A stretch of 64,000 nt of DNA, taken from Ectothiorhodosinus mongolicus. Lineage in GTDB: Bacteria > Pseudomonadota > Gammaproteobacteria > Ectothiorhodospirales > Ectothiorhodospiraceae. The translations under genes and the position numbers were made by a program. The stretch is from contig NZ_CP023018.1 in the NCBI RefSeq assembly GCF_022406875.1, positions 1,006,784-1,070,783 on the forward strand. The letters are read 5' to 3'. This document shows, one piece after another, positions 725 to 30,006 of this stretch. The first letter of the stretch is position 1, and the number at the start of each line of letters is the position of its first letter. The notes beneath the pieces are model-generated. The model was not told the origin of the DNA and searched no databases. It was given only the letters and a program-made list of their open reading frames with translations.

Positions 725-2248
725 TTAGTGCACCGTGCACTCAGACTCAACATCCTCAACAAAACAGCCCCGCTCGCTGCCATGCACATCACTGATGGCC
801 ATTTGGCAAAACAGCTGATGGTTATTCTGCAAATGGGCATAACGGCTAGCCAAAGCGTTTTTGACCCGCTGACATCTCTGTATGGCACGCTCACGCGCTC
901 CAGGCACCCGCGAGGAGTAATGAAAATGAATGAGTACCGGCACACCGAGGCCATGCTGAATATTCAGGCCGGTGAAAATCCGGATACCCACATCCATATC
1001 ATTAGCGCCTTCCTCTACCGTATCTAAATGCGCAAAATAGAATTTGTTACGCAGTTGCAGCTCGGTCATTGCCTCGCCCACGCAAATGAAACGCTCGTTA
1101 TGGCCGATAACCTGGTAACGTCCCTCGTGATGCTGGATCACGTATTCGATTTGCGAAAGGTTGGCTTCGAGTAGATGAATAACGAATTCTCGCATTCCAG
1201 CGACCATCTCACCTTCACCGCGGCCCCAGCCATCCATATGTTGTGTCTGATCGACCGTTGATGCGATATGTTGCCGAGCCGTGGCGCTATCCATGTTAAG
1301 GGTGTCGCGATAAAGCTGGCTGCTATCAACGAAGCGGTGCACATTAAGATGGCCCTGGGCATCCGGCAAGTGCACGCGAATAGCATCAATATCCGTATCC
1401 ACACCAATCAGCAAGCAATCCGGAGCCGCGCCAAAACCGTAGATGTTGTCGATCGCTGAACGCAATTCTTTTAGGCGATCCAGTGCTGCTTCTGTGGCTT
1501 GATGATCGTTGCTTCCGTGAGCAGCACAACCTTGGTGCCCCGGGTTTGATGTACTGAAATGGTAGACGGCTATTTTTAAGTAATTGCCCTCAGCACTACC
1601 TGGCGCTAAACCATCACTCAGGCGCAATAACTCGCGATGAGTCCAGTCGGCGATATCGCTCTCAATGTCGAATAAAGCGCCGGCGTAAGCTTTGACGGTG
1701 ACGGCGCTATTGGGAGCCATGCGAAAAATAAAGGGCACCAGTCCCTGCAAACGCCCATCGGCACAGGGGCTGATGTCAACCGTATGAAAGCCACAGCCGC
1801 GGATGAAATCAGGATCTAGTAACGAACGTTCACGCAATGCCTGCTGATCGGACTCAGCGTTCTCCACACAGGCATGGAAACTTTGGAATGTGCAGTAGGC
1901 ATGAAGTGCGCGCAGATCCAGCCCGGCGATCCAAGCATCTTCCAACAGATGATCAGGCAGGGCATATCCTAGCTGCATAGACGCCAATTGCTGGGCTTTT
2001 GCGACAAAGTCTGACTGGTGACGCATGCTCGATAAGACCTTCAGTGTCTCCAAAATTCGGGTGAAACGTTCTCTAACCCGCTGTTCATACTCATACAACC
2101 GTTGATTCAATTCCCGGTCTACCAGCGCATGTGCGCACTGCTGTCCCGGACCTGCCACGCAAGCTGGGTTGGGGGGCAAAGCGACATTTGCTGCCGACAC
2201 CACCCCCGCCCTAAGCATCGCTGCTTGGCGTTTGCGCGTATTCACCAA
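725..2248 (-). CDS. csoSCA: Carboxysomal epsilon-class beta-type carbonic anhydrase CsoSCA (CsoS3)
   Basis: A 507-residue protein matching CsoSCA, the shell-associated carbonic anhydrase that converts bicarbonate to CO2 inside the carboxysome. Length is close to the usual ~510-550. The likely zinc ligands are Cys162 (in SPCADGRLQG), His230 (in VYHFSTSN) and Cys241 (in PGHQGCAAHGSND); the 11-residue His-to-Cys spacing matches the known enzyme. The N-terminal helical domain starts with basic residues, and a non-catalytic C-terminal half follows. It begins 10 bp after csoS2. In the family, the N-terminus helps recruit the enzyme to RuBisCO. Confidence 0.95.
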   Translation of the reverse strand: MVNTRKRQAAMLRAGVVSAANVALPPNPACVAGPGQQCAHALVDRELNQRLYEYEQRVRERFTRILETLKVLSSMRHQSDFVAKAQQLASMQLGYALPDHLLEDAWIAGLDLRALHAYCTFQSFHACVENAESDQQALRERSLLDPDFIRGCGFHTVDISPCADGRLQGLVPFIFRMAPNSAVTVKAYAGALFDIESDIADWTHRELLRLSDGLAPGSAEGNYLKIAVYHFSTSNPGHQGCAAHGSNDHQATEAALDRLKELRSAIDNIYGFGAAPDCLLIGVDTDIDAIRVHLPDAQGHLNVHRFVDSSQLYRDTLNMDSATARQHIASTVDQTQHMDGWGRGEGEMVAGMREFVIHLLEANLSQIEYVIQHHEGRYQVIGHNERFICVGEAMTELQLRNKFYFAHLDTVEEGANDMDVGIRIFTGLNIQHGLGVPVLIHFHYSSRVPGARERAIQRCQRVKNALASRYAHLQNNHQLFCQMAISDVHGSERGCFVEDVESECTVH

Positions 2249-2258
2249 CCGTCCTCAC

Positions 2259-4226
2259 TCAGCCGCGTGCACCACCCGAGAGGGTGACGAGCGGACCATC
2301 ATGACAACTGCCGGAACTACCTGTGATTCGGCTAGTAGGAGCTGGTGGCAGTTCCACCGTCTCCCGAAAACGTCGCGCATTTGCGCCCTCACCACGCGGC
2401 TGGCCGCGCATGGAAGGGTTGCGTACTTGACTGGAGTGACCCTCGGTGCCCGTAATTCGGCCGGAGCCATCCCAAGCATCGCCAGTCACGCGAACGCCTG
2501 CTTGGCTACCTTCACCGGTCAGACGCTGGCCGGCACTGGCCGGTACCTGTGCTTGCCCCTGGTGGGTAGAACCGCCGTCGGCATGGCGAAACTCTGGAGT
2601 ACCAGTAATCAGTCCAGCGGCCTTGTTAATGGGCCCCGTAATCCGCTCGCTATTGTAGGCGGTACCAGTTACCCCGGAAGTCGCAGATTGACCGGTACGA
2701 GCCGGAGTTTGCACACTGAAATCACTCGGTGCCGGTGGGCGCGAAGGTTGATCCCACTGCTGAGATTTCGCCAAAAACTGGCTGTCCGTCGCACATTGAG
2801 CCGCCATATTATCAGCCCCCAAATAAGGGGTCCCGCTCACTGGCTCACAGGCACCTCGATCATCACCCGTCATAGCGGCACCACCAGCACCTGGCCGGTC
2901 ACCGGTGACCGCTGTGGCACTAACCAAACCGTGAGACGGCAGGCAAGCCTCCTGAGCGGAAACCTCAGGCGCTTGGCAGAATTGACCAAACTGCTGTCGC
3001 CCCACGTAAGGAGTACCGCTGATCGGCGCACAACCACCAGACTCATCGCCAGTCACATGAGACCCTCGGCCCATGGGTGTGCCGGTAATAGACTGCCCTT
3101 TAAAAGTGTGATCACTGCTCACTTTTTGCACAGCCTTATCCGCCACAGGTGTCGCGCACACATCTTTTAGTTGGGCGCCACTCACGTAATCAGTGCCCGT
3201 GACTGCAGTGCAAGATCCCTGATCTGTGCCCGTGATCTTCGAACTACGAGCTAGATCTGAGCCGGTCACGGTGCGCCCCCCTTGAGTGGGGATAGACCGA
3301 ACCTTTGGGGCGTTGCTGTCACATGGTGCAGCATCATTCACTCGCAGATACTCGGTACCCGTAACCTGTCGACAACTGCCCGATTCATCACCTGTCACTC
3401 GCTTACTGCGACCGACTTGAGTGCCAGTGACCCGCTTAGGGTCAGAATTTCTTTCCGCAGCAGCTGCCCTCGCTTCAGAGCCACTCGGGAGGTACTCGGT
3501 TCCCGTGACGCCGGACCGCATAGCTGATTCATCGCCGGTGATTTTTGACGTGCGTGCCAACTCGGTCCCGGTGACACGCGCCTCACGCATGGAACTTACC
3601 GAGGCCTTCTTGACTTGGGTGACCGCCTCGGAAGGAGCCGCTGCCGTTTCCGCACCTGGCTTTTCCGCTTTGGGCCGTTGGCGGCCACAAGGGCGCGATG
3701 AGCTCGTTTGATGAGTCTTGCCCTGAACTGAACGCTGCTTACGCTGCTGCATCGCCACACGACGGCCATCGCTCACAGGAACAGTGGCTGACGTGACTGA
3801 GTTGGCAGCAGGCGGTGGTTGACCAGCTGGGTCGGTGGTTACCTCGTGCTTGACGTTTACAAGACTGCGCTGGGGTTGGGCCGGCGCAGCCAAAGTCGAT
3901 TTTTTGCCGTTTTTAGACAGCGCCTCGCGGCGCGCCTTGGCTAGCGCTCGGCCGCGCAGTTTGCTTGTGTCCGGTGTGTAACTATTGCCGGTCGAACCAC
4001 TGGGTGCAGCAGTCACAGCACTACTAGGCTTTGCCTGCACCGAGCTGTGGGTTGCAGCAGCAGCTTTGGCTTTGACTCTTGCCGCAGTAGCGGAGCCAGG
4101 AGTGCGGCCTGCAGACGTTTTCTGCACAGCCGTTTTGCCGTGCAAAGCCATCGCCTTACGACGCTTTTGCGCCAGCTCTCGCCCAGATAGGGTAGCGCTC
4201 GCGTAGCTGTTGTCAGTTTGTGACAT
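2259..4226 (-). CDS. csoS2: Carboxysome assembly scaffold CsoS2 (short form)
   Basis: CsoS2 is the intrinsically disordered scaffold that links RuBisCO to the alpha-carboxysome shell. The chosen ATG (4224-4226) sits 6 bases after a GAGG Shine-Dalgarno; the longer frame would need a TTG inside that site. The 655-residue protein shows three basic N-repeats of the form GRxLAxxRRxAxxxxGK (about residues 14-32, 92-108, 154-170). Five middle repeats built on VTGT/VTGDES/ISGTPY start near 217, 266, 319, 380 and 436. The C-terminal region has VTGTAY, ITGTPEF and ITGTEG units and ends VTLSGG. Best-studied homologues are about 870 residues, so this is a compact variant. Cysteine pairs recur in the middle repeats, as is known for the family. 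Confidence 0.95.
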   Translation of the reverse strand: MSQTDNSYASATLSGRELAQKRRKAMALHGKTAVQKTSAGRTPGSATAARVKAKAAAATHSSVQAKPSSAVTAAPSGSTGNSYTPDTSKLRGRALAKARREALSKNGKKSTLAAPAQPQRSLVNVKHEVTTDPAGQPPPAANSVTSATVPVSDGRRVAMQQRKQRSVQGKTHQTSSSRPCGRQRPKAEKPGAETAAAPSEAVTQVKKASVSSMREARVTGTELARTSKITGDESAMRSGVTGTEYLPSGSEARAAAAERNSDPKRVTGTQVGRSKRVTGDESGSCRQVTGTEYLRVNDAAPCDSNAPKVRSIPTQGGRTVTGSDLARSSKITGTDQGSCTAVTGTDYVSGAQLKDVCATPVADKAVQKVSSDHTFKGQSITGTPMGRGSHVTGDESGGCAPISGTPYVGRQQFGQFCQAPEVSAQEACLPSHGLVSATAVTGDRPGAGGAAMTGDDRGACEPVSGTPYLGADNMAAQCATDSQFLAKSQQWDQPSRPPAPSDFSVQTPARTGQSATSGVTGTAYNSERITGPINKAAGLITGTPEFRHADGGSTHQGQAQVPASAGQRLTGEGSQAGVRVTGDAWDGSGRITGTEGHSSQVRNPSMRGQPRGEGANARRFRETVELPPAPTSRITGSSGSCHDGPLVTLSGGARG

Positions 4227-4254
4227 CACACACCTCAAACGGTTAATGGGTGGA

Positions 4255-4278
4255 TTCGGCCCCGCTGGCGGGGCCGAA
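4255..4278 (-). promoter_or_regulatory. Strong stem-loop between cbbS and csoS2
   Basis: A perfect 10-bp inverted repeat, TTCGGCCCCG at 4255-4264 and CGGGGCCGAA at 4269-4278, with a 4-base loop. It lies just after the cbbS stop (4289) and before the csoS2 ribosome-binding site. No U-tract follows on the minus strand, so it is unlikely to be a full terminator. Inference: it may stabilise the 3' end of a cbbLS transcript or attenuate read-through, giving more RuBisCO than scaffold. Confidence 0.7.
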
Positions 4279-4288
4279 CGGCCGTCGC

Positions 4289-4612
4289 TTATCGATACAC
4301 CACAAAGGTCAAACCCTGGCTCTGGGCGTAATTGTCATAGGCGACGAAACGCACCAAATGCGAGGGGAACTCGCGATGGCAGGCTTCCAACTCAGCGAGC
4401 ACCGCATCAACGGACTGTTCGCCAAAGAAGGGCAGCTTCCACATGTACCAATAATTGGACATCGCCTTTTCTTTCTCGCTGTGCTCAACGGAAGGATTCC
4501 ACCCCTGATTGATGCAATAAGCGATCTGCTGACGGATCTGCTCTGCACTCATCGGCGGCAGGTAGGAGAATGTCTCGTATTTGGTCGACGACTTATAAAC
4601 TTGAACGGCCAT
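4289..4612 (-). CDS. cbbS: RuBisCO small subunit, form IA
   Basis: A 107-residue RuBisCO small subunit, which assembles as L8S8 with CbbL. Recognisable features are [11 protein letters not shown] at the N-terminus, [13 protein letters not shown] in the middle and the [10 protein letters not shown] segment. It starts 20 bp after cbbL, is co-transcribed with it and precedes csoS2, which marks it as the carboxysomal type. Confidence 0.97.
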
Positions 4613-4632
4613 GACAATATTCCTCTGTGGTT

Positions 4633-6054
4633 TTAGCGGTTCTGGATATCGAGTTTGTCGACGGTGTCGAATTCAAACTTGATTTCTTTCCAGGTATCCA
4701 TCGCAATTTTGAGTTCTGGGCTGTGCTGCGCGGCGGCGGTGAGGATCTCCTTACCTTCGCGTTCCACTTGTCGCCCTTCGTTGCGGGCCTGGACACAGGC
4801 TTCCAGAGCCACACGGTTGGCTGCGGCACCTGCCGCATTGCCCCAAGGGTGACCCAAGGTACCGCCACCAAACTGCAGAACAGAGTCGTCACCAAAAATC
4901 GCAACCAACGCCGGCATGTGCCACACGTGGATGCCACCTGAGGCCACGGCAAACGCGCCCGGCATGGAACCCCAGTCCTGATCGAAGAACAAACCACGTG
5001 AGCGATCCTCTGGGATAAATGATTCACGCAGCAGGTCAATCCAACCCAAAGTGGAGGCGCGGTCACCTTCGAGCTTACCCACCACAGTGCCTGTATGCAG
5101 ATGGTCGCCGCCCGACAGACGCAGGATCTTGGTCAACACACGGAAGTGAATACCATGATGCGGATTACGATCGATTACCGCATGCATAGCGCGGTGAATA
5201 TGCAACAACATGCCATTGTCACGGCACCAGTTAGCCAGGCCAGTATTGGCACAGAATCCACCGGTAATGTAATCGTGCATGATGATTGGTGCGCCGATCT
5301 CTTTGGCGTACTCGGCACGCTTGTACATTTCTTCTGGAGTTGGTGCAGTCACATTGAGGTAATGTCCCTTGCGCTCACCAGTCTCTGCTTCGGACTTCAG
5401 AATGGCTTCCATCACAAAGTCAAAACGCTGGCGCCAACGCATGAACGGTTGTGAGTTGACGTTTTCATCGTCCTTGGTGAAGTCCAGACCACCGCGCAGG
5501 CATTCGTAGACGGCGCGGCCATAGTTTTTGGCGGACAGCCCCAATTTAGGCTTAATGGTACAACCCAGTAAGGGGCGACCATACTTATTCAACACGTCGC
5601 GCTCGACCTGAATCCCCAGCGGCGGGCCGCCACAAGTTTTCACATAGGCAATCGGGAAGCGAACGTCTTCGAGACGCAAAGCGCGAACGGCCTTGAAACC
5701 AAACACGTTGCCCACCAGCGAAGTGAAGACATTGACTACAGAACCTTCTTCAAACAGATCGATGGGGTAGGCGATAAAGGCATAAAAGCAGGTGTCGTCA
5801 CCGGGAACATCTTCGATCTTGTAAGCGCGGCCTTTGTAATAGTCCATGTCCGTAAGCAAATCGGTCCATACGGTGGTCCAGGTGCCAGTGGAGGATTCGG
5901 CAGCAACAGCAGCAGCAGCTTCTTCACGATCAACGCCGGGCTGCGGGGTGATTTTAAAGACCGCCAGCAAATCGGTGTCTAAGGGCACGTAATCCGGCAT
6001 CCAATAGGTTTCGCGGTAATCTTTTACGCCCGCGTCATATTTCTTGACCGCCAT
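4633..6054 (-). CDS. cbbL: RuBisCO large subunit, form IA (carboxysomal)
   Basis: A 473-residue ribulose-1,5-bisphosphate carboxylase/oxygenase large chain that fixes CO2 in the Calvin cycle. The carbamylated lysine lies in [16 protein letters not shown] (Lys194). The catalytic KPKLGLS segment, the HIHRAMHAV stretch, loop 6 ([10 protein letters not shown]) and [13 protein letters not shown] are all intact. A GGAG ribosome-binding site precedes the ATG. It is the first gene of the carboxysome operon, and its promoter should lie in the 211-bp gap before gyrB. No divergent cbbR gene is present next to it, unlike in many chemoautotrophs. Confidence 0.98.
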
Positions 6055-6265
6055 TGCTGTCTCCTGCGTGTTATGAAAATTTTTGAGTAAGGCTGATTCT
6101 CCAGATTAAGAACTCAGCCAACAAATGACCAATAGATTGTTTAGATATAGTTGATTGAGGTCAGTCTATACTTGGATTGTCGGTCAATCACTTAAGCCAA
6201 TACCCCCTAATACTACTTGGATACTTGTCAAAGCAGACGGGTCATTTTAAGTTATTGATTTATAA
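6055..6265 (-). promoter_or_regulatory. Leader/promoter region of the carboxysome operon
   Basis: A 211-bp AT-rich gap between the gyrB stop and the cbbL start, both on the minus strand. It holds a dyad TATAG-N15-CTATA (6146-6170). LysR-type regulators such as CbbR bind imperfect dyads of this general kind, but I cannot assign the site to a regulator. No convincing -35/-10 pair with 16-18 bp spacing was found. The short repeat TTGATT-TAT-AATCAA at 6255-6269 straddles the gyrB stop and is too AT-rich to be a good terminator. Confidence 0.35.
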
Positions 6266-8692
<2,427 letters not shown>

Positions 8693-10966: not shown

Positions 10967-11011
10967 AAAACCGGCTCCCAATACTTTTTATATATATTTT
11001 TCAATAGGTTA

Positions 11012-12352
11012 TCAACTTGTTAAGCTGCGCATCAGATTAACAAAATCTTCATTAATTCGGGCATCAGACTCCCTGAGCTCTTGGACTTTTCGGCACCCAT
11101 GAAGCACGGTTGTATGGTCACGCCCACCGAAAGCTTTGCCAATTTCAGGCAGACTGTGGTTGGTTAATTCCTTCGACAAAGCCATGGCCAACTGTCGCGG
11201 CCGAGTGATAGAGCGACTACGTCGATTGGAGTGTAGGTCAGAAACGCGGATTTTATAGTACTCAGCCACGGTTTTCTGAATATTGTCGATAGTAACGAGC
11301 TTATCCTGCAGCGCCAGTAAATCACGCAAAGCGTCTTTGGCAAAATCCAGCGTCACTGGTTTACCCATAAAATGAGCGTTTGCCATGACTCGCCGTAACG
11401 CCCCTTCGAGCTCGCGAATGTTTGAGCGAATCCGTTTGGCGATGAAAAAAGCCACTTCACTGGGTAAGTCCATCCCAGCTTCCTCGGCTTTACGCTGCAA
11501 AATCGCCACGCGTGTCTCAAGCTCAGCTGGCTCAATAGCCACCGTCAGCCCCCAACCAAACCGCGATTTCAGCCGATCATCAAGGCCATCAACTTCCTTA
11601 GGATAACGATCACAGGTCAAAATGATTTGCTGCTGACCTTCAAGTAATGCGTTAAAGGTATGAAAAAACTCCTCCTGCGAACGTTCCTTACCGGCGAAAA
11701 ATTGGATGTCATCGATTAATAATGCATCTAAGGATCGATAGTAGTTCTTGAACTCCTCAATCGAGTTGTGTTGCAAAGCCCGAATCATATCGGCAACAAA
11801 CCGCTCAGAATGCAAGTAAGCAACTCGGGCAGCCGGTCGATCAGCAATTATGGTGTTGCCGATGGCATGCATTAGATGAGTTTTTCCCAGCCCTGTGCCG
11901 CCGTAGAGAAATAGGGGGTTGTAGGCTTTACCCACATTCGAGGCCACCTGAAGGCTGGCAGCCTTGGCTAACTGATTGGATTTGCCTTCAACAAAATTGT
12001 TAAAGCTGAAATTGGGATTAAGATTGTTGGTGAACTGCGGCAGTCCAGCAGCTGGTCGTACTTCACTCGGGGTATTCACCGCTGTCTCGACACCACTCAA
12101 ACTGCTAACAGCAGCATGACTACCAATCTCTAGTTGAACCTGCTTCCCAGCGCCAAGCACAGTGATAACCTGTTGAATACGCTCAAGAAAACGATCACGC
12201 ACTGAGTCAAGGACGAAACGATTGGGCGCCAGCAGCCTGAGTCTGTTGCCCTCTTCAACGGCCTGCAATGGACGAATCCACGTATTGAGCTCTTGATCAG
12301 AGAGCTCACCTTCAAGCTGCAATAGCGTTTCCTTCCAAAGCACACTAACCAC
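11012..12352 (-). CDS. dnaA: Chromosomal replication initiator DnaA
   Basis: A 446-residue AAA+ initiator that binds DnaA boxes and opens oriC. Domain I is the N-terminal ~85 residues ([15 protein letters not shown]). A variable linker precedes domain III with Walker A ([15 protein letters not shown]) and Walker B ([12 protein letters not shown]). Domain IV has the DNA-binding signature [15 protein letters not shown]. The gene reads away from rpmH. A perfect DnaA box about 64 bp upstream suggests autoregulation. Confidence 0.98.
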
Positions 12353-20645: not shown

Positions 20646-21704
20646 TCAGTCTGATTTGCTTTCCCCGTCCTCAATGAGAATTTTCGAGCGACGTTGATTT
20701 GTCACAAGTTTCTGCACTTTGGCGTCCACAAGGGCAAGAAAGCGATAACCACCATGGGTGAATTTGCTCAGAGGCATGAGTACAAAAAAAGCCAATACAC
20801 AGCCCAGATGCAATGCCACCAAGATGGGCCCGGCATTGCTTTGCAGTAATAGCTTTGCAGCCAATCCGGTGACGGCGAGCAACCCCAAGAGTGTGAGTAG
20901 CAGATATCCCTGTGCTGCAGGAGCACTGGCTTTCAGTGCTATCCGCTCTTGAGTTTTGTGATACGCCAGCAGGAGAACACCCAGCAGGAGTACGAAGCCA
21001 AATAAAACGGCGAGGATATCGGGTAACAAAGGATGAATCGGGGCAAAGATCACGCTTATGGGGGTGGCTAAAATGCTCAAGAAAAAACCATAGAAAACGG
21101 CGTGATGCGCTAAGCGGCGGTGATCGGGGTGCTGGCTTTGTTGACAACCGCCACCACCGCCATCCAAATGGCGTAAAACTAGAGTATCGATTAGAGCGTC
21201 TCGCCAGGCTTGACCAGAGCGAGCATCAACGGTGGTGGCCCGCGTTTCTCGCCAAAACTGCAGCCAGGACATCGACATGCTGAAGATAGCCCACAATAAG
21301 CCGAGTGCAAGTAATGTGGGGGTCCACACTGACGGTGCCTGTATTCCCATTAGCAATAGAGGGATCAGGCCAATGATGAGCAGCCATACTGCACCCCAAA
21401 GTGGCTTCGTTATGAGCTGATCAGCAAAGCCTTTTGGCCAAGCGAATTGTTCGTAGCTGTTAACACGCGTGCGCGCCAAAGTTGCGGGCACGTCTATAGC
21501 AAAGGGGTGGGGCGGTGCGTACTGACACGCCGACCAGCAGGCACCACAGTTGTGGCAGAGGTTGGCCAAATGCACCAAGTCCTCGAGGCGCAGTTCGGAG
21601 CGTTGCTGTGCCGAGGGAAATACCGGACAAAGTCCCGTACAAAACCCGCATACATTGCAGAGTTTGAAGACGCGCCTTGCTTCTTGGTTAGATGACGAGT
21701 CCAT
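20646..21704 (-). CDS. TcuB/CobZ-type iron-sulfur, haem b membrane oxidoreductase subunit
   Basis: A 352-residue protein with two N-terminal 4Fe-4S-type motifs (CNVCGFCTGLCPVFP and CHNCGACWSACQY). About six transmembrane helices with scattered histidines, suited to haem b, follow. This is the TcuB architecture: in Salmonella TcuB reoxidises the flavin of TcuA during tricarballylate oxidation. In Rhodobacter capsulatus the same modules are fused in CobZ, which makes precorrin-3B for B12. Three bp from the TcuA-like gene and directly linked to two cobQ genes, it is most likely part of a split CobZ; no tricarballylate transporter or regulator is nearby. Confidence 0.85.
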   Translation of the reverse strand: MDSSSNQEARRVFKLCNVCGFCTGLCPVFPSAQQRSELRLEDLVHLANLCHNCGACWSACQYAPPHPFAIDVPATLARTRVNSYEQFAWPKGFADQLITKPLWGAVWLLIIGLIPLLLMGIQAPSVWTPTLLALGLLWAIFSMSMSWLQFWRETRATTVDARSGQAWRDALIDTLVLRHLDGGGGGCQQSQHPDHRRLAHHAVFYGFFLSILATPISVIFAPIHPLLPDILAVLFGFVLLLGVLLLAYHKTQERIALKASAPAAQGYLLLTLLGLLAVTGLAAKLLLQSNAGPILVALHLGCVLAFFVLMPLSKFTHGGYRFLALVDAKVQKLVTNQRRSKILIEDGESKSD

Positions 21705-21707
21705 GGG

Positions 21708-23078
21708 CTAGTGTCTCATCGCCACAGCGGCTTGCTGGCCCGCAATGCGCCCAAATACAGCTCCGACCGCTAAAGCCGCGCCGGCAGTGTAGCCGCCTCC
21801 GAGTATCGCCGGCGCCATAATCATACCCGCAGCAAACACCCGCTCACATGGGCCACCTTCTGTTATGCATACACGCGCTTTGCCATCGACTTGTATGCCA
21901 AACCCCGTGAAGGTAATGCCTGGACATAAGGCATAGGCGCTAAACGGGGGTTTTTTAAGGGCCATCGCGAATCGGCTTTTACGCGGAGTCGCAGTGCAGT
22001 GACAGTTCGCTGACGACGTTTCGGAGACAATATGGTCATGGTATTGGGACACTGTTTTCTGCAACTGCTGGGGGTCTACGTCAATGGCGCTTGCTAACTC
22101 GGTGAGGCTATGGGCACGAACGGGTTCATAAATATGGTCAGGGAGCTGAGTTTCACCATCGGCATCCAATAACAAGTAAGAAGGGCCATCTGCGTTTTGC
22201 AACAGGGTCTGACCCCAATAAGAATAGCGATGCGGACTGGTCATTTTTGCTTCATCAAAAAACCGCTCACCGCGCTTATTGATGACAATGCCCCAGTGTA
22301 GCCCGTCTGCGCGCGTGACAATGCCACCATCGGTCAGAGGTGCATCAGCGTGGACAGCGACCGCATGACATTGATCTCGCCTGCCGACCGGTTTGGCTCC
22401 CTGAGCCAATAAGTCCGACAATAATGCACCTGTTACCCAGGGCGAGCCTCGCACACGCAGATGGTCAGCCACGGGCCCTAGGTCTTCTCTGAGCTTATCT
22501 AAATTAGCTTGATAGCCGCCGCTACAGATAATCACGCTGGCGGCCCGCAGCGTGCATTGGTCCTGTGGCTGTTGCAGCACTATTTCGAAATTTTCACGGA
22601 CATGCAGGGGCACATGCGTCACAGTAGTCTCTTGCAGGATTTCAACACCCAGTGTTTCAGCCCGGGTGAACAGTGCATTCATGGCATGTCGACCGCCACC
22701 CAAAAAGAAAGCTGTCTTACGTGAGTAGGGTAGATTGGCTTGTTCGATGGTTTCAAACTTCAGCCCTTGGCGCATGAACCAGTCGGGTAGCTCGGCAGAC
22801 TGCTTGGCCAGGATCTGACACAGCTCAGGGTCACCCGCCCCATGATTGATCGCGTTTAGATCAGCCATATATTCGTCTACGCCATACTGGCCTGGAAAGA
22901 GCGGACTGGGTTGATCATGAGCAATGCGCAAATTGCGTGAATGCCGTGCATTGCCGCCACGTTGGAATTTGGGGGCGGAATCTACCAATGTGACCTTAGC
23001 ACCATGCTCACTGGCACTGATGGCTGAGCAAAGCGCCGCTATGCCACCGCCAATAACCAAAACATCGGTGCTATTCAT
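21708..23078 (-). CDS. TcuA/CobZ-type FAD-dependent oxidoreductase
   Basis: A 456-residue flavoprotein of the succinate dehydrogenase/fumarate reductase flavoprotein superfamily. The Rossmann dinucleotide motif is VLVIGGGIAALCSAISASEHG at the N-terminus, RNLRIAHD follows, and the C-terminal FAD contact is AGMIMAPAILGGGYTAGAALAVGAVFGR. TcuA oxidises tricarballylate to cis-aconitate; the fused homologue CobZ catalyses precorrin-3A to precorrin-3B. The start codon overlaps the cobQ stop by 4 bp, so coupling to cobyric acid synthesis favours the corrin role. Which reaction it performs cannot be decided from sequence alone. Confidence 0.85.
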   Translation of the reverse strand: MNSTDVLVIGGGIAALCSAISASEHGAKVTLVDSAPKFQRGGNARHSRNLRIAHDQPSPLFPGQYGVDEYMADLNAINHGAGDPELCQILAKQSAELPDWFMRQGLKFETIEQANLPYSRKTAFFLGGGRHAMNALFTRAETLGVEILQETTVTHVPLHVRENFEIVLQQPQDQCTLRAASVIICSGGYQANLDKLREDLGPVADHLRVRGSPWVTGALLSDLLAQGAKPVGRRDQCHAVAVHADAPLTDGGIVTRADGLHWGIVINKRGERFFDEAKMTSPHRYSYWGQTLLQNADGPSYLLLDADGETQLPDHIYEPVRAHSLTELASAIDVDPQQLQKTVSQYHDHIVSETSSANCHCTATPRKSRFAMALKKPPFSAYALCPGITFTGFGIQVDGKARVCITEGGPCERVFAAGMIMAPAILGGGYTAGAALAVGAVFGRIAGQQAAVAMRH

Positions 23079-24625
23079 CGGCCGCCAAAGGGTTTTTCTG
23101 CCAAGCTCAGCAGGTGGTCTAGATCCAAATCCGCTTCAAGTTGAGCAGCGAGCTGGTCCAGCGTATTTTCCATGCGTTGCTGGTGCGCTATGCCGGATGC
23201 TTTGACGCCCAGAGTATCCAGCCAATGTGCGCGAAATGCATCATTATGAAATAGGCCATGAACATAGCTGCCAAAAACGCGCCCATCAAAGCCACACGCA
23301 CCTTCTGCATCAACTGTGTCTTGCGTTTGCAGATTCAACCAGGGACTGGACAGCGCTGGGCCCTTTGAGACCCCCATGTGCATTTCATAACCCTGGATAC
23401 GTGCCTTGGAGTGCTGATCCAGATGGTCCAGGGTACGCAAGGTTTTAGACACATCAATATGTGTTTCCATGTTGAGTAAACCCAGTCCTTGCGTACTGCC
23501 GGGCGAACCTTCTAAGCCATCCGGGTCATGGACGGCATTGCCCAACATTTGAAAACCGGCACATAAACCTACGACAACACCTCCACGGCGCACATGCGCT
23601 CGGATATCGTGATGCCAGCCTTCGGTATAAAGTGTCTTGAGATCTTCACGGGTAGCTTTTGAACCCGGAAGAATCACCACATCGGTATCTGCAGGAACCG
23701 GGGTTCCGGAAGGGAGCCAGAAGAGGTTGACCTCCGGTTCCGCCGCTAACGGATCTAAGTCATCAAAATTCGCTACACGAGGCAGTCGAGGGACTGCGAT
23801 GTTTAATTTGGCGGATCGGCCAGATCGAGGACGATCCAGCGCTAGGGAATCTTCTTGAGGCAGTTGAGCAGCGGCATCAAACCAAGAGATTAATCCCAGA
23901 CAGGGCCATCCGGTGATTTGACTCATGAGGTGCATTGCTGGGGCAAACACCTTCGGGTCACCACGGAAACGGTTAACCAGATAGGCCTTAATGCGCCGAC
24001 GATCTGCTTCTGACCAGAGAGCATGACTACCCACCACAGAAGCCAGCATGCCGCCACGAGCATCCTCGCCCATGAGGACCACGGGTAAATCGGCAGCTTC
24101 AGCCAGGCCCATATTGGTAATGTCCTGGGGGCGCAAATACGTTTCTGCACTAGAGCCGGCTCCTTCTACCAAAACCAAGTCTGCCTCACTGGCAAGACGA
24201 CGCAAGCTATCAAGAACGGCCGGCAGAAGCTGCGGTTTGATGTTTTGATAGTCAGCGGCAGAGATTTGCCCAATCACCCGACCGCGTAAGACGACCTGAC
24301 TGCAGTCATCAGACTCGGGCTTGAGGAGCACCGGATTCATATGCACAGAAAACGACGATCCACAGGCCATGGCTTGTAATGCCTGAGCTCGGCCGATTTC
24401 ACCTGCATGATCGGGCACATCAGAATCAACGGTGACTGCAGCATTATTGCTCATGTTTTGTGCTTTAAAGGGGCGTACGATAAGACCCCGGTTGGTGAAA
24501 GCCCGACATAGACCGGCAACAACTAGGCTTTTGCCCACATCCGCGTTCGTGCCTTGGAGCATCAGCACTTTGCCGCGTGTTGCGCGGTCAGGGCTTAACT
24601 TGGGGAAATCCAGAGTGCGGGCCAT
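23075..24625 (-). CDS. cobQ: Cobyric acid synthase-like protein, divergent paralogue
   Basis: A 516-residue CobQ/CbiP-type glutamine amidotransferase, which amidates corrin side chains b, d, e and g in B12 synthesis. The P-loop region is QGTNADVGKSLVVAG. The triad-type GATase domain has GVVVGLCAGFQMLG (Cys nucleophile) and FGSYVHGLFHND (His). The highly conserved GDIDRGG motif reads GEDARGG here (24050-24070), so an aspartate is lost or shifted. I use the ATG at 24625; the longer frame starts with TTG inside the upstream paralogue. It lies 13 bp after the canonical cobQ and may have reduced or altered specificity. Confidence 0.88.
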   Translation of the reverse strand: MARTLDFPKLSPDRATRGKVLMLQGTNADVGKSLVVAGLCRAFTNRGLIVRPFKAQNMSNNAAVTVDSDVPDHAGEIGRAQALQAMACGSSFSVHMNPVLLKPESDDCSQVVLRGRVIGQISAADYQNIKPQLLPAVLDSLRRLASEADLVLVEGAGSSAETYLRPQDITNMGLAEAADLPVVLMGEDARGGMLASVVGSHALWSEADRRRIKAYLVNRFRGDPKVFAPAMHLMSQITGWPCLGLISWFDAAAQLPQEDSLALDRPRSGRSAKLNIAVPRLPRVANFDDLDPLAAEPEVNLFWLPSGTPVPADTDVVILPGSKATREDLKTLYTEGWHHDIRAHVRRGGVVVGLCAGFQMLGNAVHDPDGLEGSPGSTQGLGLLNMETHIDVSKTLRTLDHLDQHSKARIQGYEMHMGVSKGPALSSPWLNLQTQDTVDAEGACGFDGRVFGSYVHGLFHNDAFRAHWLDTLGVKASGIAHQQRMENTLDQLAAQLEADLDLDHLLSLAEKPFGGR

Positions 24626-24638
24626 AGGCTTTTGGCGT

Positions 24639-26210
24639 TTAGCGCGCCAGCGACAACAGCGAATCCAAATCAAGATTGGCCTCGCAGTGATCCGCTAAAG
24701 CATCCAGCGCTGCTTCAATGCGTGCTTCGTAGGCTAGGTCCGAAGCTTTACCGCCAACTTGTGCCAACCAGTGACGGCGAAAGTCATCATTGCCGAAGAT
24801 GCCATGGACATAAGCGCCGCTGACCAAACCATCAGCGGTTATTGCCCCCTCGTCGCGAACGGTTCCTGAAGCTTCGCTGAGTCGCAACCAGGGTTTTTCC
24901 AGGCCGGGGCCTTGCGTGCGACCCATGTGCATTTCATAGCCCGTGATGCTGCAACCCGAGAATGTTTCTGTTGCATGAAGTTCCAACAGTTGTTTATCGG
25001 GTGTCATTTCAGTCTCTAAATCCAGCAAGCCTAAGCCGGGTGTTTCACCGGGCTCACCTTCGATACCAGAAGGATCACGAATCACCTTGCCCAGCATTTG
25101 GTAGCCAGCGCACAGGCCCACCACCCGCCCACCTTGGCGCACGTGCGATTGAATATCGATGTCCCAGCCTTCGCGGCGCAGCGTATCTAAGTCGCCCCGG
25201 GTGGACTTCGAGCCAGGCAGAATGATCACGTCGGTATCGCGGGGTATGGACTGGCCGGGTTTTACCCAGCGCAAGTGAACGCCCGGTTCGGCAGCCAGCG
25301 GATCCATGTCATCAAAGTTGGCAACACGAGACAATTGTGGGATCGAGATATTCAGACTCCCTCCTTGACTCATCGCTGGTCTTTCCAAAGCCAAAGAGTC
25401 CTCCGCAGGCAATTGTGCTGCGGCGTCAAACCAACGCAGAACGCCCAGCGAAGGCCAGCCGGTACGCTCTGTCATCAGCTCCATGGCGGGTTCAAACAGA
25501 GATAAGTCACCTCTGAATTTATTGATAATATAGCCCACAACCCGAGCTCGCTCATCGGCTTCATACAGGGCATGCGTCCCCACAATCGCCGCCAATGCGC
25601 CGCCGCGATCAATATCTCCCAGCAAAACCACAGGTAGATCGACTAGGTTGGCGAGTTTCATATTGGTGATATCGGATTTGCGCAGATAAACTTCGGCGCC
25701 ACTGCCGGCACCTTCAACCAGGACGAGATCGGCTTGTGCTGCAACACGATGAAAACTATCGACGACTGCTGGCAGTAGCTGAGGCTTCATCTTGTGATAC
25801 ACCTTGGCGCGACAAGTACCCAAGACTCGCCCGCGCAGCACCACCTGCGAACCGGCTGTGGTCTGGGGCTTGAGCAACACCGGGTTCATGTGAATCGACG
25901 GCGCTACGCCACAGGCTCGCGCTTGCAAAGCTTGGGCTCGCCCAATTTCACCGCGATGGGGTTGAGTCTCACCCTGTTGGTTTATTTCGGGATCACAGTC
26001 GCTGGTAACCGCTGCGTTATTGCTCATGTTTTGGGCTTTGAAAGGTCGCACAGTGAGCCCGCGTCGGGTGTAGGCGCGACAAAGGCCAGCTACCAAAAGA
26101 CTTTTGCCCACATCGGAGCTGGTGCCCTGAATCATGAGCGCCCGCGAGCGCCGCGGAGCCAATTCAGGACGTGAGGGAAAATCGATGGCTGCTTCAGGAT
26201 CATTAATCAC
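24639..26210 (-). CDS. cobQ: Cobyric acid synthase
   Basis: A 523-residue adenosylcobyrinic acid a,c-diamide amidotransferase (CobQ/CbiP). P-loop-like QGTSSDVGKSLLVAG, MNPVLLKPQ, VEGAGS and the canonical GDIDRGG motif are intact. The GATase domain has GRVVGLCAGYQMLG with the catalytic Cys and SGAYVHGIFGNDDFRR with the His. It heads the four-gene set cobQ-cobQ-tcuA-like-tcuB-like and is 86 bp from bchE, whose product needs the B12 this pathway makes. Confidence 0.95.
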   Translation of the reverse strand: MINDPEAAIDFPSRPELAPRRSRALMIQGTSSDVGKSLLVAGLCRAYTRRGLTVRPFKAQNMSNNAAVTSDCDPEINQQGETQPHRGEIGRAQALQARACGVAPSIHMNPVLLKPQTTAGSQVVLRGRVLGTCRAKVYHKMKPQLLPAVVDSFHRVAAQADLVLVEGAGSGAEVYLRKSDITNMKLANLVDLPVVLLGDIDRGGALAAIVGTHALYEADERARVVGYIINKFRGDLSLFEPAMELMTERTGWPSLGVLRWFDAAAQLPAEDSLALERPAMSQGGSLNISIPQLSRVANFDDMDPLAAEPGVHLRWVKPGQSIPRDTDVIILPGSKSTRGDLDTLRREGWDIDIQSHVRQGGRVVGLCAGYQMLGKVIRDPSGIEGEPGETPGLGLLDLETEMTPDKQLLELHATETFSGCSITGYEMHMGRTQGPGLEKPWLRLSEASGTVRDEGAITADGLVSGAYVHGIFGNDDFRRHWLAQVGGKASDLAYEARIEAALDALADHCEANLDLDSLLSLAR

Positions 26211-26296: not shown

Positions 26297-27967
26297 TCAG
26301 GCGTTTTCGCGGATATCAGTCTTGATTGTTTCACTGTCTAGGCTCTCCGCTAATTGCTGATCACCGCCGCCACAGACTTTCACCTGTACCGCTGCATCGC
26401 TGGCTGCTGCTTTGGCAGGCTTGCCGCCACGCTTGCGGATCGGAGCACTTTTCCACTTAATGACCTGTTCCTCAAGCTGCGGCTCAGGTTTCACCAGCGT
26501 GCGGCTGGTGTCAAAGTTCCAGTCCACCTTCTTGCGCGACTGTGGGCCCCAATAACCGGCTTTACCCAGGTCGTAGAAGCGTCGTTCAAACGCACTTTTC
26601 AAAAACGCTTTGAGGCAGCCGAGCAGGTATTTGCGACGCAAGCGATTGCGCTCCCAGGGATAACCGAGGAAGGCTTTCTTCATGTAAAAGCGTCTGTAGT
26701 TATGCATCACCCGATCCAGTAATTCACCACGGGTCATAGCTGCAGGCTTCATAATCGGTGTGACAAAGTTGTATTTTTCAAAGTCGAAAATTTCTACTTT
26801 GTCCTTGACGTCGTTGTACAAATCCGAAAATGGCCAGGGAGTGAACATCGCCCAATTCGCCATATCGGGATTCCAGTCCATACACATGCGGAAGGTTTCT
26901 TCGAGAGTTTCCGGGGTCTCATTGTCCAGACCAACAATGAACTGAGCTTCGGTGACGATACCGGCATTGCGCAGCAGTTCAATGGCCCGTTTGTTTTGGG
27001 CCACGGTGGTCTCTTTCACGAATGTATCGAGATTCATCTGCGCGGCGGCTTCGGTTCCTAGGGAAATGTGGACCAAGCCTGCCTTGCGATAAAATGGCAA
27101 CAAATCCTCATCACGCATGATGTCGGTGACGCGGGTATTGATACCCCAAAGAATGCCCAAATCACGATCGATCAGTTCCTCACAGAACTCGACGAATTTG
27201 GCTTTGTTAATCGTCGGCTCTTCATCGGCCAGGATAAAGAAGCCAACGCCATGATCCTTCATGAGGATTTCGATTTCATCGACGACTTTCTTCGGGTCAC
27301 GGACTCGGTAATCACGCCAGAACTTCCACTGGGAACAAAAGCTACAGGTGAAAGGGCAACCCCGCGACATGCTGGGCGTGGCAACCGGCACGCCAAGGGG
27401 AATGTAGATGTACTTCTTCCACTCCAAAATGCCCCAATCAGGGATAATCGAATCGACATCGCGAATGGTGGGTGCCGCTGGGGTGGCAATGACCTTGTCA
27501 TCGTCATTAAATGCGATGCCTTTGATTTCGTTGCGGCACTCAGGCCAGCGACCCGCATCAATGGCTTGAACCACTTCAAGCGTGATGGATTCGCCTTCGC
27601 CACGAATGATCGCATCAATCCAGGGTGCCTCAGTGAGGACCTGTTGGAACATGAAGGTAGCATGAATACCGCCTAATAGCGTCACCGCATTGGGACAGAC
27701 CTCTTTAGCGATTTTCAGCGTTTCCTCGGCTTTGTAAATGGCCGGAGTTACCGAGGTGCAGCAAATGACATCAGGATTTTCATGAGCAAAAATCTTGCGC
27801 AGATCCTCGTCACTGATTTCATCGGTCATGGCGTCGACAAAAATATAATCGTCATAACCGTTGGATTTGAGATAACCGGCTAGGTAGGCGACCCAGGCAG
27901 GAGACCACTTGCCGGCGATTTCAGCTCCGCCGGAATGATAGTTCGGGTGGACGAATAGGATTCGCAT
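26297..27967 (-). CDS. bchE: Mg-protoporphyrin IX monomethyl ester oxidative cyclase, anaerobic (BchE)
   Basis: A 556-residue B12-binding-domain radical SAM protein that forms the isocyclic ring E of (bacterio)chlorophyll without oxygen. [27 protein letters not shown] and [14 protein letters not shown] match BchE closely. The radical SAM cluster motif is [20 protein letters not shown], and [20 protein letters not shown] and [13 protein letters not shown] follow. The C-terminal [12 protein letters not shown] is also typical, then a lysine- and alanine-rich tail. The ATG at 27967 has GGAG 7 bases upstream. Presence of bchE implies anoxygenic photosynthesis. Cobalamin dependence links it to the adjacent cob genes. 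Confidence 0.95.
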
Positions 27968-28022
27968 ATGCATGCTCCGCAAAATAAGAAGCGAGACTTC
28001 AGAGGACTGGCGACTCGCAAAT

Positions 28023-28047
28023 ACCATAGGCATTAAAATCCTATGGT
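28023..28047. promoter_or_regulatory. Inverted repeat upstream of bchE
   Basis: ACCATAGG (28023-28030) and CCTATGGT (28040-28047) form a perfect 8-bp dyad with a 9-base AT-rich spacer. It is centred about 68 bp upstream of the bchE start, in the 173-bp gap after the Cys-rich protein gene. It could be an operator or a weak terminator of the upstream gene. The TGT-N12-ACA site of PpsR/CrtJ and the FNR consensus were not seen in this gap. Confidence 0.45.
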
Positions 28048-28140: not shown

Positions 28141-28494
28141 TTAGGGAGTGCGAGGTCGATAGTCGGGGATGGCTTCCTCGGGCAAATCCACTTGGAAACG
28201 AGTTTGTGGTTTGCCATCCCACAACACAGGCTGCTCTAACCATTTTTGGATGAAGTTCCAGGATTGCTTGATGCCATTATGCGGCAAATTGCAGCCACTG
28301 CAGTCTTTGCGCCGCATGCCATTGGCATCAATGAATACCTTATAGGGTCCCGGACACTCATAGGCAATTAGCGGGCAATAACAAAACAGACAATTGAATT
28401 CTCGTTTCACGCCTTTGTGGCAGGGCATGAAAGGGCATTCGTGATTGGTAAAGCCTTTGAAGGCTTCGTTGTCGGTGGTGTCTTTGGGCTGCAT
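28141..28494 (-). CDS. Cysteine-rich small domain protein
   Basis: A 117-residue protein matching the metal-binding-type 'cysteine-rich small domain' family. Nine or so cysteines lie in HECPFMPCHKG, FNCLFCYCPLIAYECPG and KDCSGCNLPHNG, enough for more than one metal or Fe-S site. The ATG at 28494 has AAGG 8 bases upstream; a GTG at 28533 would extend it and overlap hemF by 8 bp. Family members often lie near B12 genes. Here it sits between hemF and bchE. Function is unknown; a link to corrinoid or cluster handling is inferred from position. Confidence 0.8.
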   Translation of the reverse strand: MQPKDTTDNEAFKGFTNHECPFMPCHKGVKREFNCLFCYCPLIAYECPGPYKVFIDANGMRRKDCSGCNLPHNGIKQSWNFIQKWLEQPVLWDGKPQTRFQVDLPEEAIPDYRPRTP

Positions 28495-28525
28495 GGGATC
28501 AGCCTTGGGGATTTTGCGCAGTGTG

Positions 28526-30006
<1,481 letters not shown>

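Follow-up and report, generated by a model that had tools for sequence, protein, structure and literature searches.

A tandem CobQ paralogue with an altered loop in Ectothiorhodosinus mongolicus and other purple bacteria: a candidate specialised corrinoid amidase

A stretch of 64,000 nucleotides from Ectothiorhodosinus mongolicus (contig NZ_CP023018.1, positions 1,006,784 to 1,070,783; hereafter the window) carries, side by side on its minus strand, two genes for proteins of the cobyric acid synthase family, CobQ1 and CobQ2, the second of which has an altered loop. The pair goes back to a duplication, the loop change is fixed in CobQ2, the catalytic residues are intact, the gene is under selection within the host genus, and the two genes keep close company in the gene order. 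On balance, and judging from sequence, we favour the reading that CobQ2 is an active, specialised corrinoid amidase, a cobyric acid synthase paralogue kept beside CobQ1.

Results and Discussion

Two CobQ proteins, one with an altered loop

Both proteins belong to the CobQ family. CobQ1 and CobQ2 score 621.4 and 575.1 bits against NF001989 (cut-off 273), and 417.6 and 393.9 bits against TIGR00313 (cut-off 309.9); they contain the CbiA-type ATPase domain (PF01656) and GATase_3 (PF07685), and are 61% identical to each other. The catalytic residues of the glutaminase are kept in both, Cys in CAG[FY]QM and His in YVHG; they are C356 and H457 in CobQ2 (numbered with the codon preceding the ATG as 1) and C367 and H469 in CobQ1, and they are retained in all 15 CobQ2 rows of our alignment.

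The loop was compared across 130 sequences, 15 CobQ2 and 115 other CobQ, some of them from the same species (Ectothiorhodospira shaposhnikovii occurs twice). Outside CobQ2, loop position 2 is invariably Asp (115 of 115 sequences); the CobQ2 sequences have Glu (12) or Asp (3) there. Position 3 holds Asp or Glu in every one of the 15 CobQ2 and Ile, Leu, Asn or Val in the others, with an acid in 0 of 115. At position 4 the CobQ2 sequences show Ala (12) or Ser (3), where the others have Asp in 106 cases, Glu in 5 and His in 4. The canonical GDIDRGG type, with an acid in position 4, is therefore found in 111 of the 115 other CobQ, as it is in CobQ1 of the window, and in 0 of 15 CobQ2, and the loop may serve as a marker of canonical cobyric acid synthase function. 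Further sequences beyond the 130 added no position-3 acid outside CobQ2. One Rhodobacteraceae copy outside CobQ2 reads GDINRGG, with Asn in position 4, so that this position is not always acidic in the other CobQ. Four more columns separate the CobQ1 and CobQ2 clades (V95, Q128, L142 and Q258 of CobQ2). In predicted models of the two proteins (predicted local distance difference test, pLDDT, 92.9 each) the loop lies at the end of a strand, ahead of a helix.

An earlier note on this DNA had described two tandem CobQ paralogues, one with an altered motif, and the description stands for two full-length proteins. GEDARGG lies exactly where the note had put it, at 24050-24070, GDIDRGG is in the upstream copy, and the glutaminase Cys and His are in both. 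The distribution of the position-3 acid and of the position-4 Ala or Ser excludes a chance alteration, and structure modelling at the motif, proposed there as a check, gave the strand-end placement just described. The last four corrin amides made from the a,c-diamide are b, d, e and g. The note's premise that one CobQ enzyme normally makes all four agrees with the available parts of two papers, in which a single CobQ/CbiP carries out the last four amidations (PMC7242693, PMC8123684); the amides are printed as b, d, e and f in the first (PMC7242693).

A single old duplication

The first tree held 82 rows, 48 of the 130 having been left out, mostly distant or repetitive sequences. All CobQ1 and CobQ2 fell in one 45-row clade (100/98), which splits into CobQ2 (15 rows, 100/99) and CobQ1 (30 rows, 97/88). 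A second tree of 70 rows, built with the seven motif columns removed, again recovered CobQ2 (20 rows, 100/99) and CobQ1 (31 rows, 99/93). The loop change is thus not what makes the CobQ2 clade, since the clade stays when the motif columns are taken away, and all 20 of its rows read [GA][DE][DE][AS]RGG. On the second tree the CobQ2 label changes once, and the purple-bacterial CobQ1 clade is the sister group of CobQ2. Within both clades, Rubrivivax, Rhodocyclus, Rhodovulum, the Rhodobacteraceae genome G336 and Cereibacter cluster apart from the Ectothiorhodospira group, and for lineages with both copies the branching in one subtree matches that in the other, which implies one duplication before the spread. 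The trees thus trace CobQ2 to a single old duplication of a purple-phototroph CobQ; the pair may then have spread by vertical descent with losses, or by joint transfer.

Where CobQ2 occurs

The window genome is a single contig of 1,995,095 bases. PF00124 reaction-centre genes are present in it and in nine of nine relatives of the host genus set, E. shaposhnikovii included; which of the other genera discussed here are phototrophs is general background. All ten genomes of the set carry both copies, with GDIDRGG and GEDARGG loops. A third, ordinary CobQ (ADIDRGG) occurs elsewhere in six of them (G001, G005-G009), where it stands between cobB and cobU. A search at E 1e-30 found no third CobQ in the window genome, G002, G003 or G004; the late B12 locus of the window genome consists of cobB, cbiB, cobU and cobT.

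Outside the genus set, the genomes given here by name were retrieved for their similarity to CobQ2 and are not a random sample. Rhodocyclus, Rubrivivax and Rhodovulum carry CobQ2 with the loop GDESRGG, plasmids of Cereibacter sphaeroides and C. azotoformans carry it with ADDSRGG and ADESRGG respectively, and it was also found in a second Rhodobacteraceae genome (G336) and two more Rhodocyclaceae. Halorhodospira abdelmalekii has an intact CobQ2 (GEEARGG), and no CobQ1 was found in its draft genome. CobQ1 accompanies intact CobQ2 in 18 of 19 genomes or plasmid records. The pair is rare in the wider families: by score it is present in at least 2 of the 295 Rhodobacteraceae genomes and in 3 of the 199 from Rhodocyclaceae, the Rhodobacteraceae count being score-based with motifs read in the best 30 loci. 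The family of H. abdelmalekii, represented by 12 genomes, has one intact CobQ2, one genome (G380) with CobQ1 and a truncated CobQ2, six with an ordinary CobQ only, and four without a match at E 1e-60. In G380 (G380:C1:945000-964000) the CobQ2 open reading frame, at 10986-12065, starts just before the motif and keeps GEDSRGG; the N-terminal half was not found. An intact CobQ1 lies alongside at 5680-7224.

Ten Chromatiales genomes each show a single CobQ (E 1e-60), which belongs to the CobQ1 clade, while Rhodopseudomonas, Rhodoblastus and Magnetospirillum fulvum have one of CobQ1 type and another CobQ.

Gene neighbourhoods point to corrinoid synthesis. In C. azotoformans, cobB, cobQ1 and cobQ2 follow each other with 4-base overlaps and cobU is nearby, which places CobQ2 in that pathway. 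The cobB ahead of the pair on the plasmid of C. sphaeroides EBL0706 (L132:13210-13929) encodes 239 amino acids, against 448 in C. azotoformans; both ends match and the middle is apparently missing. In three Ectothiorhodospira genomes (G002, G004 and G005) the two cobQ genes are about 2-6 kb apart, and the E. shaposhnikovii locus has cobK, cobJ and cobI further along.

Selection on CobQ2, and whether it is a relic

The ratio of nonsynonymous to synonymous substitution (dN/dS) within the genus, in nine pairs, was 0.037-0.067 for CobQ2 and 0.016-0.051 for CobQ1. These values cover 9 of the 36 CobQ2 pairs possible among nine genomes, with no pair that includes the window genome; the CobQ2 of G008 stood outside the set, though no stop lies inside its match. 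Judged by these ratios, selection on CobQ2 in the genus is purifying. The window copy itself has one substitution (G215A) among the 84 columns conserved across at least 95% of the other 129 CobQ sequences. Among the 212 columns that do not vary in the remaining CobQ2, it deviates at 10 (H. abdelmalekii also at 10), compared with 135 of the 260 variable ones.

Several observations weigh against a specialised, retained function. CobQ2 has the higher dN/dS in nine of nine pairs. The branch of the window CobQ2 measures 0.72 and that of the window CobQ1 0.31, a 2.3-fold difference, although such lengths for the window copies depend on the relatives sampled; the truncated G380 copy, with branches of 0.51 for CobQ2 and 0.23 for CobQ1, has the same ratio as the window pair. 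Because the window branch is long, with a ratio like that of a truncated copy, constraint on CobQ2 may be weaker in the window species. Searches found no CobQ2 in those Chromatiales and alphaproteobacterial genomes that have CobQ1 without the pair, and this, together with the truncation in G380, makes it dispensable. The phototroph G013, of the host's own family, has a single ordinary CobQ that falls in neither clade, and the linkage of bchE to cobQ1, described below, carries no direct information on CobQ2.

Much of this would be expected if CobQ2 were a redundant, weakly selected copy on the way to loss, and if its altered loop were a relic that arose in early drift and was tolerated: the truncation, the many CobQ1-bearing genomes in which CobQ2 was not found, the consistently higher dN/dS and the long branch in the window genome all fit. 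We nevertheless think such a relic quite improbable. A dN/dS of about 0.05 is still low, G380 is the only truncated row among 20 CobQ2, the Cys and His are in all 15 rows checked, one loop pattern has been retained across alpha-, beta- and gammaproteobacteria, and four members of the genus have the pair with no third, ordinary CobQ.

The earlier note had listed slow decay among the possible fates of the second copy, which for the genus the dN/dS range does not support. The phylogeny and dN/dS check that it proposed returned a single clade and purifying selection, but a selection weaker than on CobQ1 and a long window branch. It had also named relaxed selection with frame disruption in close relatives as evidence that would count against it; a 5'-truncated copy does exist, in G380, but within the genus selection is purifying. 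Its suggestion that the second copy may be specialised gains from the old duplication, the fixed loop, the purifying selection and the close spacing.

The loop and a possible mechanism

The closest solved fold to the N-terminal half of the CobQ2 model is dethiobiotin synthetase (1dae; Z 19.4, root-mean-square deviation 3.2, 209 residues aligned), and to the C-terminal half GatD (6fqb_E, Z 18.1); no solved structure surfaced as a whole-length sequence relative of CobQ. A profile built from the N-terminal half picks up Escherichia coli dethiobiotin synthetase at E 1.2e-6 by sequence, and at only 0.0073 for the stretch that bears the loop, and the profile alignment sets the CobQ loop against the VVGVKLGC stretch of that enzyme, LPVILVVGVKLGCINH. 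In dethiobiotin synthetase this loop acts across the dimer, touching the substrate carboxylate from the other subunit. The parts available of a paper on that enzyme describe a homodimer with the diamino acid in a cavity between the two subunits (PMC8659263). Because the CobQ loop aligns with this stretch, and the substrate there lies between subunits, the loop change may touch substrate choice.

Under the reading that we favour, CobQ2 would still form amides from glutamine and ATP, and the acid shifted one residue along the loop would alter the corrin carboxylates or the corrin form accepted, whether metal-free, cobalt-bearing or partly amidated. Within one pathway, CobQ1 would perform the standard four amidations, and CobQ2 would take on some of them or an additional substrate. 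That the four reactions are strictly divided between the two proteins appears less likely, because the ten Chromatiales, if they do make B12, would do so with the single CobQ of CobQ1 type that the search found in each of them.

A bolder proposal, which we regard as unlikely, is that in some purple bacteria cobyric acid synthase is heteromeric or made up of two enzymes: the four amidations, or the amidation of an unusual or metal-free corrin, would need both CobQ1 and CobQ2. If true, the CobQ2 loop would represent a second, differently tuned active site; we know of no earlier division of labour within the cobyric acid synthase step. More specifically, by analogy with dethiobiotin synthetase, CobQ1 and CobQ2 might form a mixed dimer with two unlike active sites, one per loop, perhaps serving different side chains. 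The intersubunit substrate cavity of that homodimer (PMC8659263) and the description of CobQ as dimeric (PMC8123684, in the part available) would suit this arrangement, as would the near-constant company of CobQ1. It is rather doubtful all the same. CobQ1 seems to work alone, since the ten Chromatiales have it without CobQ2; the H. abdelmalekii draft has CobQ2 without CobQ1; and the two genes are some kilobases apart in G002, G004 and G005.

Corrinoid pathway and gene layout

The window genome has its corrin-ring genes together (957,884-963,643), namely cobA, cobM, a CbiE-type gene, cobK, cobJ, cobI and cobH, in a search whose targets did not include CobF, CbiD and CbiG, and cobH is present in all ten genus genomes. 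On these grounds we rejected the idea that the host has an odd CobQ because it lost corrin synthesis. Of the cobalt chelatases, the window genome yielded neither CbiX nor CbiK, nor a CobN that passes the cut-off; its only related match, below the cut-off, was taken as BchH. CobN passes the cut-off in seven of the ten genus genomes; the window genome, G004 and G005 hold the pair without it. Because of these three the pair does not track CobN, and a link of the pair to late cobalt insertion was rejected.

The features of the window are collected in Table 1.

Table 1. The cobQ pair and neighbouring features (positions in the window; aa, amino acids).
Feature	Position	Strand	Remarks
CobQ1, cobyric acid synthase with canonical GDIDRGG loop	24639..26210	-	523 aa, GTG start
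CobQ2, CobQ paralogue with altered loop	23075..24625	-	ATG start; passes NF001989 and TIGR00313
TcuA / CobZ N-terminal-like flavoprotein	21708..23078	-	TIGR02485 437.5 bits (cut-off 372.55), NF006130 484.6 (369)
TcuB / CobZ C-terminal-like 4Fe-4S protein	20646..21704	-	TIGR02484 261.5 bits (cut-off 246.6)
BchE, cobalamin-dependent anaerobic cyclase, bacteriochlorophyll synthesis	26297..28033	-	TIGR02026 792.8 bits (cut-off 481.35)
Cys-rich small domain protein	28141..28533	-	PF04071 49.2 bits (cut-off 27)
GEDARGG loop of CobQ2, residues 187-193	24050..24070	-	end of strand before helix
GDIDRGG loop of CobQ1	25599..25619	-	sequence position
Glutaminase Cys356 codon, CobQ2 (CAGFQM)	23561..23563	-	codon place by arithmetic
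Glutaminase His457 codon, CobQ2 (YVHG)	23258..23260	-	codon place by arithmetic

The order on the minus strand is bchE, cobQ1, cobQ2, the tcuA/cobZ-like gene and tcuB. Thirteen bases separate cobQ1 from cobQ2 (an alternative cobQ2 start, TTG at 24673, lies within cobQ1), the cobQ2 stop and the tcuA start share four bases (ATGA), and tcuB begins three bases past tcuA. A hairpin-like stretch was spotted by eye between bchE and cobQ1. The TcuA-like and TcuB-like proteins both pass their models, which cannot separate CobZ from tricarballylate use. CobZ occurs in a fused form in Rhodobacter capsulatus; in the window (20646-23078) a CobZ-like function is apparently split over the two genes adjoining cobQ2.

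Outside the host genus set, bchE is close to cobQ1 in 12 of 20 loci of the CobQ1 clade, and it is so in nine of nine further genus loci. This linkage, and a loop unlike that of all other CobQ compared, could suggest that CobQ2 acts on a non-corrin, for instance a tetrapyrrole of the bacteriochlorophyll pathway or an unrelated acid. We hold this to be very unlikely: C. azotoformans CobQ2 sits in the cobB-cobQ1-cobQ2 set with cobU nearby, CobQ2 remains well over half identical to CobQ1, the few Rhodobacteraceae with the pair compare with 69 of 295 that have BchE (both pair genomes included), and we know of no amidated bacteriochlorophyll intermediate. A link of the pair to BchE was also considered, and was dropped for want of pair genomes.

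The Cys-rich PF04071 protein recurs by bchE or cobQ in several Chromatiaceae, Rhodopseudomonas, Rubrivivax and Cereibacter loci. At 725-6054 the window of this purple phototroph has RuBisCO and carboxysome-like genes (identified by eye), near dnaA.

Comparison with known systems

To our knowledge, the structural basis on which CobQ/CbiP amidates four corrin carboxylates in turn while sparing others is not understood, and a neighbouring natural paralogue with a fixed loop change offers a ready comparison for its choice of carboxylate. Among the titles and abstract openings listed from the PubMed Central (PMC) open set we found no study of paralogous CobQ in phototrophs; papers using the names cobQ1 and cobQ2 exist.

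CobQ2 resembles CobQ/CbiP, the adenosylcobyric acid synthase (EC 6.3.5.10), in domain order, ATP loop, EGAGS, D-I-T-N-M and the GATase_3 Cys and His, but differs by its GEDARGG, in which the second Asp of GDIDRGG is gone and an acid stands one residue earlier. In Salmonella CbiP, mutation of one Asp reportedly scrambles the amidation order in part; by arithmetic on the sequence, this Asp would lie in D-I-T-N-M, which is kept in both copies, and outside the altered loop. The a,c-diamide synthases CobB/CbiA and CfbB have two Pfam domains in common with CobQ2 (as seen for the host CobB), but CobQ2 fails the CobB model, with 40.5 bits against a cut-off of 254 (NF002204). It likewise fails the model of dethiobiotin synthetase, BioD, at 22.4 bits against 83.3 (TIGR00347); BioD, and GatD of MurT/GatD, have folds like the halves of CobQ2 but are separate proteins with other substrates.

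A biochemical parallel comes from a purple sulfur bacterium. When its CobQ was added in E. coli to the genes that provide a cobalt-free diamide, hydrogenobyric acid was formed, according to the portion of PMC6771967 available, so that an enzyme of the CobQ type can take a metal-free corrin. The same portion reports that cobalt-free corrinoids are made by some purple sulfur bacteria (PMC6771967). Because the ten Chromatiales each show a single CobQ of the CobQ1 clade, that enzyme probably belongs with the window CobQ1, and CobQ2 forms a separate sister clade. The CobQ clade described here is probably home to the amidating enzyme of those purple sulfur bacteria reported to make cobalt-free corrinoids.

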